64,000 nucleotides of DNA from NCBI GenBank assembly GCA_017459725.1, contig JAFUCL010000034.1:1-64000 (forward strand), read 5' to 3'. A program made the translations under genes and the position numbers. This document shows positions 5,331 to 7,891 of the stretch, in pieces; positions within the stretch are counted from its first letter, which is position 1, and every line of letters starts with the position of its first letter. The stretch is from Solobacterium sp. (GTDB taxonomy: Bacteria; Bacillota_I; Bacilli_A; Erysipelotrichales; Erysipelotrichaceae). The notes below the pieces were generated by a model. It was given only the letters and a program-made list of their open reading frames with translations, ran no database searches and was not told the DNA's origin.

Positions 5331-5354
5331 AAAAGGCCGCGTGGCCTTTTTATT
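5329..5354. terminator. Bidirectional terminator between convergent genes
   Basis: AAAAAGGCC-GCGT-GGCCTTTTT is a symmetric hairpin with U tracts on both strands. It serves the thiI operon and the convergent metallophosphoesterase gene, whose stop lies inside it. Confidence 0.9.
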
Positions 5355-6222
5355 TTGAAGTGTCTGTTATGGAGCGGTGTTCAAGCCGGTAGAGTACGAT
5401 TTCCGCATTGGCCAGGAAACGCACATCACGGATCTCCGTGCCCGTGCCGTTGGTGATATCCAGGGTGAAGGCACCGTTTACGGTATACTTGCCGCGGATA
5501 TATGTGGTGGCTCCGGGCGGTGTATACAGGGCTCCGAATCCCCAGTATGCCTGGCCGCCGTGACTGTGTCCGGCAAGTGCATATTTGGTAAGATCGGTAG
5601 GGAACTGGGCTGCTGTATCCGGCGTATGGCATACTGCAATTGCGTAGGATGTGCGCGATACATTGGCAAAGGCCGTGGTGATATCGGCATATCCGTTTAC
5701 ACCGTTGTCGACTCCGACCAGCACGATTGCCTGTGATCCCTGGTTGCGCAGGGAGATGCTGCGGTTGTTCAGCAGTTCGAATTCGCCGTCATACAGGGCT
5801 TCTTCCACGCGTTTGGTCAGGGTTACATCCTTGCGGTCCGCATCACCCATGACAGCGAATTTGCCAAGCGGCGCATTGATTCGCTTTAGACCCGTGGAGA
5901 TTTCCTTCTTCATGGCTTCATCCATGACCGTTACTTCATCCGCAACAAGATCTCCGCCGAATACCACAATATCCGGAGACAGACCGTTGATTGCCGTGAC
6001 AAGTCTGGAAAGCCTTGCACTGTCCATGAATGCACCGTAATCCAGATCGGAGAAGTACAGCACGGAAATATCATTCATCTGTTCGGGAATATATATGGAA
6101 GATAGGGTTTCATAACGTACGGTGAAGCGCTTCGGTGCCGAGAAGAAAGCATCATATGTCAATGCCGCAATCGTTACGGCAAGTATCAGTGAAATGGCGA
6201 TGATTTTCCTGAGAATCTTCAT
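5350..6222 (-). CDS. Membrane-anchored metallophosphoesterase-like protein with altered motifs
   Basis: 290 residues with an N-terminal membrane anchor (about 6-25) and an external calcineurin-like phosphoesterase domain related to the YkuE/YaeI group. The motifs are in order but altered. Motif I is D59-L-D61 where DxH is usual; motif II is GGD (D91); motif III is GDAD (126-129) instead of GNHD. Motif IV H199 (CHTPD) and motif V GHSH (218-221) are intact. Metal ligands could persist through the Asp replacements, but the catalytic motif III histidine is gone. The ATG at 6222 follows GGAAGA; the upstream open frame runs through the neighbour's promoter. Divergent from the HAD-like gene, 81 nt apart. 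Function unknown. Confidence 0.8.
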   Translation of the reverse strand: MKILRKIIAISLILAVTIAALTYDAFFSAPKRFTVRYETLSSIYIPEQMNDISVLYFSDLDYGAFMDSARLSRLVTAINGLSPDIVVFGGDLVADEVTVMDEAMKKEISTGLKRINAPLGKFAVMGDADRKDVTLTKRVEEALYDGEFELLNNRSISLRNQGSQAIVLVGVDNGVNGYADITTAFANVSRTSYAIAVCHTPDTAAQFPTDLTKYALAGHSHGGQAYWGFGALYTPPGATTYIRGKYTVNGAFTLDITNGTGTEIRDVRFLANAEIVLYRLEHRSITDTSK

Positions 6223-6246
6223 TTGTCTTCCTTTTCCATAAGCAAT

Positions 6247-6255
6247 ATCATAACA
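6247..6255 (-). promoter_or_regulatory. Promoter of the metallophosphoesterase-like gene
   Basis: Minus-strand extended -10 TGTTATGAT with no clear -35. It is back to back with the HAD gene promoter. Confidence 0.5.
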
Positions 6256-6275
6256 CAACAGGCAATGACCATATA

Positions 6276-6284
6276 TGTTATAAT
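6276..6284 (+). promoter_or_regulatory. Promoter of the HAD-like gene
   Basis: Extended -10 TGTTATAAT at 6276-6284. The predicted start near 6291 would leave a leader of about 13 nt that begins with the GGAGGTGG Shine-Dalgarno. Confidence 0.6.
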
Positions 6285-6303
6285 TCGGCGGGAGGTGGAA
6301 CTG

Positions 6304-7065
6304 ATGCTGTCTGATGCATGGCTGATTGCTGCTTCTGCTCTTCTTGATGACAAGGGGAAACCGCGCAGTGAAGCAATACTGTTTCTTGATGCGCTCCGCC
6401 AGTACAGAAAACCGTTTGCTGTACTGACGAATCAATCCGTATTTTCCAGGGATGCATTATGTGCCCGCTACAACGATGCCGGTTTTCATCTGAAACCGTC
6501 TTCTTTCTATACATCCATCATGGCTGCCATTGATTATGCGCACAGTCAGAAACCTGACGCAAAGACAGCCGGATATATCGGTTCACATGCAATGCGTGAT
6601 CTGCTCCGTTCCGCCGGGTATGCGGTTGATATGAACAAGGCAGACTGGGTCTTTGCCGGTACCGACCGCAATGCACAGTACAATGACTACTGCTATGCGC
6701 TGCGTCTGATCATGGGCGGTGCACAGCTGATTGCGGCTGATCTTGCACCTGCGGATCATATAGATGATACCGTGCTTATCGGTACGGGGGCCGTTGTCCG
6801 TATGCTGGAAGAAGCTTCAGGGATGAAGGCAATCAATGCCGGGTTCCCCTCAGAGATATTTGTCAGCAGGGCTCTCAAGTATCTCGGTACGGATGCGGAG
6901 GATACTGTATTTATCGGTACGGATCCTGCCGGTGAGATTGCGGCTGCTTCAAAGGCCGGCGTCAGAACGGCATGGATTACCGGACTCAATGAGGATGCCG
7001 ACGTCTTTGAAAGCGAAGTGCGTCCTACATATCTGTTTGAAAGTTTTACAGGTTTACTGCGCTGA
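6304..7065 (+). CDS. HAD-fold, NagD-like protein lacking catalytic residues (pseudo-phosphatase)
   Basis: 253 residues that can be followed along the whole NagD-type HAD fold (core plus C2-type cap), but every catalytic position is changed. The nucleophile motif DxDG is A9-A10-S11-A12. Motif II T42-N43 is kept. The motif III lysine (GKP in NagD) is F181. Motif IV GDxxxTD reads G205-T-D-P-A-G-E211. The frame is intact with a strong Shine-Dalgarno (GGAGGTGG) 7 nt before the ATG, so this is a maintained gene, not decay. I infer a binding or regulatory role rather than phosphatase activity. The stop overlaps the convergent hydrolase gene by 12 nt. Alignment was done by eye against E. coli NagD from memory. 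Confidence 0.8.
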   Translation: MLSDAWLIAASALLDDKGKPRSEAILFLDALRQYRKPFAVLTNQSVFSRDALCARYNDAGFHLKPSSFYTSIMAAIDYAHSQKPDAKTAGYIGSHAMRDLLRSAGYAVDMNKADWVFAGTDRNAQYNDYCYALRLIMGGAQLIAADLAPADHIDDTVLIGTGAVVRMLEEASGMKAINAGFPSEIFVSRALKYLGTDAEDTVFIGTDPAGEIAAASKAGVRTAWITGLNEDADVFESEVRPTYLFESFTGLLR

Positions 7066-7776
7066 GTTCTCCTGGCAGGCGTTGATCAGCCAGCGGATCA
7101 GCTCAACATGTTTTTCATCATGAACAAGTCTTTCCGGATGCCACTGCACCGCAAGGACCTGTTCTTTTTCTACGCCTTCAATGATGCCGTCTTCGCTGTA
7201 TGCGGAAACAGTCAGGGAAGGGGCAGGATCCTTGATGGCCTGGTGGTGATAGGAATTGACGGTATGCGTATCACCGAATATATCGTGCAGAACGGTATCT
7301 TCGCAGAATGTGCATGAATGGGCTGTCTCACCGGCTCCGCGGGGCGGATCCATGTTTCTCTGGTTGTGTTCAACCGTTGTGTGAAGGTCACTCGGGATAT
7401 CTTGATACAGGGTGCCGCCTTCAGCTACATTGATGACCTGAATGCCGCGGCAGATACCGAGCACAGGTTTATGGGCACGCCGGAAGGCATGGTACAGCAG
7501 CATGTCACTGGAATCGACATCAGCCTCCGGAAGAGAGCTGTGGGTATTCTCTTCACCGTAGTAGGCAGGATCAATGTCCTCACCGCCTGTGATCACAAGA
7601 CCGTCCAGGGCAGCCGCAATATCATCTGCTGTTTCTTCGGTAACGGTGCCGAGCATAACCGGAATGCCTCCGCCCAGCCCGACATACTGGAAATAACTTT
7701 CATTGTTATAGAATCTTCTGGTATCGGTATTGAATACACTGCACCGTTCGGTCAGACCAATCAGCATTTTTCTCAT
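7054..7776 (-). CDS. Gamma-glutamyl hydrolase, peptidase C26 / class-I glutamine amidotransferase-like (PuuD-like)
   Basis: 240-residue cytoplasmic hydrolase of the gamma-glutamyl-GABA hydrolase group. The nucleophile cysteine sits in GICRGIQVINVAEGG, and the His-Glu pair of the triad in VQWHPERL near the C-terminus. The opening MRKMLIGLTER and the DGLVITGGEDIDP segment are typical. GAGGTG lies 7 nt before the chosen ATG; the open frame extends 14 codons further up without a ribosome site. No polyamine or GABA genes lie nearby, so the substrate is unknown. Confidence 0.85.
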   Translation of the reverse strand: MRKMLIGLTERCSVFNTDTRRFYNNESYFQYVGLGGGIPVMLGTVTEETADDIAAALDGLVITGGEDIDPAYYGEENTHSSLPEADVDSSDMLLYHAFRRAHKPVLGICRGIQVINVAEGGTLYQDIPSDLHTTVEHNQRNMDPPRGAGETAHSCTFCEDTVLHDIFGDTHTVNSYHHQAIKDPAPSLTVSAYSEDGIIEGVEKEQVLAVQWHPERLVHDEKHVELIRWLINACQENSAQ

Positions 7777-7891
7777 ATAAATCACCTCGTTAAGCTGAAT
7801 TCTATCATATACGGGCATGTGTGTGGTACTCTGTCTGTTTGCCTGTTAATTTGTAAGATGGTAAGATGTTTTAGAACATCGTCGGAGGATT

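Follow-up and report, generated by a model that had tools for sequence, protein, structure and literature searches.

A NagD/YutF-type HAD-IIA protein without catalytic residues, probably retained as a pseudophosphatase throughout a Solobacterium-like genus

Introduction

The Bacillus subtilis protein YutF (structure 3pdw) and the Escherichia coli protein UmpH/NagD (2c4n) are 5'-nucleotidases of the HAD-IIA type. Such proteins have a Rossmannoid HAD core with a C2 cap between motifs II and III, a DxD nucleophile and acid/base pair, a motif II Thr or Ser, a motif III Lys and the motif IV acidic pair GDxxxxD. In YutF, the catalytic set consists of Asp10, Asp12, Thr43, Lys181, Asp206 and Asp211 (PMC5132288). 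The protein described here is encoded in the window, by which we mean the whole stretch of 64,000 nucleotides of Solobacterium sp. DNA that was analysed. It shares with YutF and NagD the fold, the order of the C2 cap and the positions of the four motif loops; however, its nucleophile, acid/base, Lys and motif IV acids have been replaced and its identity to them is 23–25%.

Pseudophosphatases described so far are mostly eukaryotic Cys-based enzymes, and the fold of MTMR13 is Cys-based and not a HAD fold. Like the window protein, STYX and MTMR13 have a phosphatase fold without catalytic residues and a gene that has been kept; however, they are eukaryotic proteins whose partners are known, and the fold of STYX is Cys-based and not HAD (PMC10211241). 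The open-access papers that we searched contained no case of a HAD-IIA pseudoenzyme established throughout a genus of bacteria.

The gene is divergent from one encoding a calcineurin-like metallophosphoesterase of the LpxG/YaeI type, for which the expected motif set is D-x-H, GD, GNH[DE], H and GHxH. The neighbour matches this type at the level of the fold and retains D, D, H and H ligands, but the motif I His and the motif III Asn-His are altered across the genus, so that the full set is not present.

Results

The features of the locus are collected in Table 1. The HAD reading frame is intact, and its ribosome site is placed 8 nt 5' of the ATG. The strong promoter that had been claimed for the gene is not supported: an extended -10 element is readable by eye, but the number of promoters detected by a consensus scan did not exceed that in shuffled sequence. 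On the other side, the convergent Peptidase_C26 gene has its last 12 bp in common with the HAD gene, and it adjoins the HAD/phosphoesterase pair in many genomes of the genus.

Table 1. Coordinates of the features discussed, in positions of the window
Feature	Position	Strand	Remarks
Probable HAD-IIA pseudophosphatase gene	6304..7065	+	253 aa, ATG start, open frame
Former motif I, DLDGT to AASAL, residues 9–13	6328..6342	+	alignment columns
Motif II Thr42-Asn43, retained in window copy	6427..6432	+	alignment columns
Former motif III Lys, now Phe181	6844..6846	+	alignment columns
Former motif IV, GDNLETD to GTDPAGE, residues 205–211	6916..6936	+	alignment columns
Extended -10-like TGTTATAAT (6276–6284) and ribosome site GGGAGG (6290–6295)	6276..6295	+	by eye
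Divergent intergenic region, HAD gene/phosphoesterase	6223..6303		81 bp
Calcineurin-like metallophosphoesterase (LpxG/YaeI-like)	5350..6222	-	290 aa, N-terminal helix 2–31
Convergent Peptidase_C26/gamma-glutamyl-GABA hydrolase-like gene	7054..7782	-	Pfam and gene-neighbourhood comparison

Two Pfam domains, Hydrolase_6 (PF13344, 3e-14) and Hydrolase_like (PF13242, 3e-8), were recognized in the window protein above cut-off. The curated family scores were not reached: TIGR01457 gave an E-value of 2e-29 but 102.7 bits, less than half of its cut-off of 247.65, and TIGR01460 gave 60.6 bits against a cut-off of 100.15. An AlphaFold2 model built on the alignment of the genus was a confident NagD fold (mean pLDDT 93.4) with the HAD core and the C2 cap in its usual place. 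Its best Foldseek matches were NagD 2c4n and YutF 3pdw, with TM scores of 0.88–0.89 (0.89 for 2c4n), the structural match to 2c4n, 3pdw and 1ydf covered the whole length, and VIA-align returned full-length Z scores of about 32–33 against NagD/YutF-type structures. The NagD-like alignment over the whole protein, originally made by eye, is borne out.

When aligned with 25 intact relatives, the window protein differs from them by the changes D9 to A9, L10 to A10, D11 to S11, G12 to A12, T13 to L13 and Lys to F181, and the positions of the YutF catalytic set are occupied by A9, S11, T42, F181, T206 and E211. Only the motif II Thr is thus as expected; the acidic pair of motif IV is gone from the window copy, although some copies of the genus retain some of these acids. 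Every residue call of the original prediction (AASA at 9–12, Phe181, GTDPAGE and the retained Thr-Asn) proved exact. Misalignment is excluded as an explanation, since the columns are shared with the 25 intact relatives and the structural match extends over the full length. The window protein has a HAD-IIA (NagD/YutF) fold without the catalytic residues. Judged from these residues, neither the formation of an aspartyl-phosphate nor the usual coordination of the catalytic Mg2+ is open to it, and it would have to act by binding.

The loss is not peculiar to the window copy. Among 70 species genomes of Solobacterium-like Erysipelotrichaceae, a sample that includes the window genome, the HAD gene is present in 64, as 63 full-length copies and one broken copy (in G247). 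The nucleophile Asp (position 9) and the motif III Lys (position 181) are found in 0/63 of the full-length copies, as compared with 25/25 of the copies read from other genera of the family, all of which have the complete catalytic set; one further outside copy, from G120, was omitted from these counts because the start-codon rule had trimmed its start (the raw frame reads LDLDGTMY). Motif II has a Thr or Ser in 58 of the 63 genus copies and its Asn in 10. In the maximum-likelihood tree, which like that of the phosphoesterase is unrooted, a single branch with a support of 100/100 separates all 63 genus copies, as one clade, from the rest; their identity to the window copy is 26–44%. Relatives with an intact DxD, which would have spoken for misalignment or local decay, are from other genera, and the loss of catalytic residues is a fixed state of the whole genus and not local decay. 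Database records matching the genus copies are labelled Solobacterium sp. or Erysipelotrichaceae bacterium, several of them coming from rumen or gut samples.

HAD-IIA proteins are present in 37 of 59 genera of the family. Intact orthologues in G044, G048, G085, G145 and G017 have the same divergent gene order with a gap of 56–81 bp and 31–36% identity to the window copy but, unlike it, have complete DLDGT, TNN, GKP and GDNLETD motifs. Only two genomes of the genus, G196 and G222, showed an additional HAD-IIA gene apart from this one, its motif I being intact, and a search of the window genome for a second PF13344 match above cut-off found none. A prozyme-like role as partner of an active HAD-IIA paralogue was rejected on these grounds.

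The genus copies fall into two halves in the tree, the subclade of the window (n=31) and the other subclade (n=32). In the subclade of the window, the nucleophile site is occupied by S, T, M or C (Ser in 16/31), the D11 site mostly by Ser with D11 retained in 8/31, and the motif III Lys site never by Lys (0/31) but by F, W, M, I or L, mostly the first three; the last motif IV position is Glu in 28/31 and the cap Arg is retained in 9/31. In the substrate-specificity loop, columns N146 and D148 have likewise changed in the window copy and its subclade. In the other subclade, the nucleophile site is mostly Gln, an Asp or Glu is present at the D11 site in 30/32, Arg replaces the Lys in 22/32, the last motif IV Asp is kept in 29/32 and R149 is present in 21/32; most of these copies have a GxDFxxDI loop.

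Selection maintains the gene, as had been suggested from its open frame. In 24 sister pairs within the genus, dN/dS of the HAD gene determined by a counting method was 0.03–0.33, single values being rough as dS exceeds 1 in several pairs. For these pairs, the nearby genes (the phosphoesterase, PuuD, rsmE and thiI) gave comparable values. A decaying pseudogene was rejected on these values together with the 63 open copies. Of 57 columns that are invariant in the active relatives, the 10 belonging to catalytic motifs still show the original residue in 23% of the genus copies, compared with 51% for the other 47 (p 0.006 by a permutation that ignores relatedness). Constraint has not only been lost: L13 (95%), I40 (85%), D77 (77%), P84 (82%), D146 (80%) and G250 (92%) are conserved in the genus at positions where active relatives have a different or variable residue, which points to new constraint. 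Further conserved segments are YTSxMAAxD at 69–77, G..Y at 119–129, IGxG[SA] at 159–163 and GL[LI]R at the C terminus. As the HAD protein has diverged faster than the phosphoesterase, the identities of which within the genus are about 41–58%, the constraint on it is the weaker of the two. With the catalytic residues gone, the fold predicted to be kept and purifying selection evident, the protein has the properties of a pseudophosphatase.

The gene is nevertheless dispensable. In G181 (L176 5846–7546) it is cleanly missing from its place, with PuuD on one side and the retained phosphoesterase on the other; in G102 both genes are absent, with no match to either within 1.5 kb after thiI; and in G247 (L125) the copy is split into two frames, which is either a real loss or an assembly error. 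The HAD gene is therefore not essential.

The divergent phosphoesterase has also departed from its family, which the original prediction had missed. In the window it has DLD in place of DxH and GDAD in place of GNHD, and throughout the genus DxH has become DxD/E and GNH has become GDx, with D, D, H and the first His of GHxH retained. Of 57 tabulated genus copies, two have the motif I His and 55 an Asp, Glu, Lys or Gln, and motif III NH is altered in all 57, with Asn in two and His in none; the copy in G154, which lies outside this table, retains the motif III His. Since Asp is able to bind metal, the protein may represent an enzyme that has been altered and not inactivated. The scores of the window copy against the family lie below cut-off. 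The AlphaFold2 model (pLDDT 90.2) starts with a helix of 30 residues, and Foldseek gave weak matches to it, led by proteins of the metallophosphoesterase fold such as Mre11. Some copies of the genus (L111, L095, L091, L114, L090 and others) end in a long, acidic C-terminal tail rich in Pro and Thr. The N-terminal helix, together with acidic tails like those of surface or secreted proteins, suggests that the phosphoesterase is extracytoplasmic; the HAD protein has no signal of this kind.

The two genes are divergently adjacent for essentially every HAD copy of the genus with enough contig, the gap being 35–93 bp in the 57 genus genomes in which it was measured. Both are present in 63 of the 70 genomes, although counts of joint absence carry little weight, as G195 also lacks thiI and is perhaps incomplete and the contig of G218 stops before the phosphoesterase. 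Outside the genus, the phosphoesterase is intact in G030, G044, G078, G097 and G120. Its motif III has been lost in G131 and in G017, G066, G048, G085 and G145, in the last five of which, those covered by the motif table, the HAD protein is intact. An intact HAD gene also stands beside a strongly altered phosphoesterase (SDLYYG, GEHD, GDSLGG) in G033 (L048), where the change is possibly an independent loss.

Discussion

In this study, we revisited a HAD-like gene that had been predicted to encode a protein stripped of its catalytic residues. We propose, with a probability of about 80%, that the NagD/YutF-type HAD-IIA 5'-nucleotidase of this genus lost catalysis once and has since been kept as a pseudophosphatase. 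The loss would date to the stem lineage of the genus, and the protein would have kept an enzyme-like fold and would act through binding. The two halves of the genus have diverged, that of the window occupying the site of the former Lys by hydrophobic or aromatic side chains and the other having mostly an Arg there and the GxDFxxDI loop; judging from the sequence, the pocket would be filled. What the protein binds is a more tentative matter. A cytosolic scaffold or allosteric partner, in which the conserved surfaces of cap, hinge and C terminus bind either a protein or some ligand other than a phosphate, seems to us the most attractive role, though we would put it at a little short of an even chance.

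It had been suggested that the protein is a sensor of a sugar phosphate or nucleotide phosphate, which would mean that the old pocket binds such a ligand without hydrolysing it and signals to a partner. The motif II Thr/Ser and the cap motifs are conserved, and most copies of the other subclade have the Arg in place of Lys, an acid at D11, the last motif IV Asp and R149, so that the idea could apply there. It is unlikely for the window copy because its half has lost the phosphate-binding Lys, D11, the last Asp, the residues of the specificity loop and, for the most part, the cap Arg and the Asn of motif II. Overall, we consider a sensor improbable. A changed enzyme, in which catalysis has shifted to other residues and to a different reaction, would have precedents, since some pseudoenzymes turn out to catalyse other reactions (review PMC10211241). 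It is a reservation about our main proposal, too, that residues could have migrated and that the Ser found at position 9 in about half of the subclade of the window may be reactive. However, no polar residue has become fixed in place of the nucleophile in the genus (S, T, M, C, A, E, Q and I all occur), and the subclade of the window shows no conservation of the acidic metal cluster, which makes a changed enzyme very improbable. Still less credit is due to the view that the gene is on its way out, its constraint relaxed after loss of the substrate pathway and its remnants open by chance. Fast protein divergence, the losses in G181 and G102 and the broken copy in G247 would fit, but the number of full-length copies, dN/dS values similar to those of rsmE, PuuD and thiI and the newly conserved residues largely refute it, and with it the possibility of a lineage-specific decaying copy.

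The relation to the divergent phosphoesterase deserves more consideration. The two altered phosphatases might work in one pathway or complex, in favour of which are their tight adjacency, their joint presence and their joint absence from G102, and the loss of canonical residues in both. As the phosphoesterase is altered in five genomes in which the HAD protein is intact, the loss in the pair looks stepwise, although with unrooted trees it is not fixed which changed first. The adjacency is also found in genera with an intact HAD gene and may be due to no more than a promoter region shared by the two genes; the phosphoesterase family, with members in 58 of 59 genera, is more widespread than the HAD protein and persists alone in G181; its N-terminal helix and acidic tails suggest a place outside the membrane; and the counts of co-occurrence are weakened by shared ancestry. 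We therefore regard a functional pair as possible but doubtful, and are equally hesitant about the wider idea that both proteins lost canonical catalysis stepwise and jointly became a non-catalytic module of the whole genus. On the same evidence, the suggestion that the HAD protein regulates its neighbour stays conjectural: the pair is indeed strictly conserved, but the same arrangement exists with both genes intact (G044), the phosphoesterase outlives the deletion of the HAD gene, and its N-terminal helix suggests an extracytoplasmic domain.

Returning to the pseudophosphatase, its retention in some 60 species implies a job without the original catalysis, and the hydrolase label given to the window protein by Pfam should be corrected. 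Since the enzyme in its intact form, intermediate stages of the neighbour and over 60 dead orthologues are all available at one gene location, the transition from enzyme to non-enzyme is directly testable at this locus. The most diverged HAD copies are those of G075 (L043) and G031 (L044), which have small genomes of about 1.4–1.5 Mb and in which YTSxMAA and the cap motifs are eroded.
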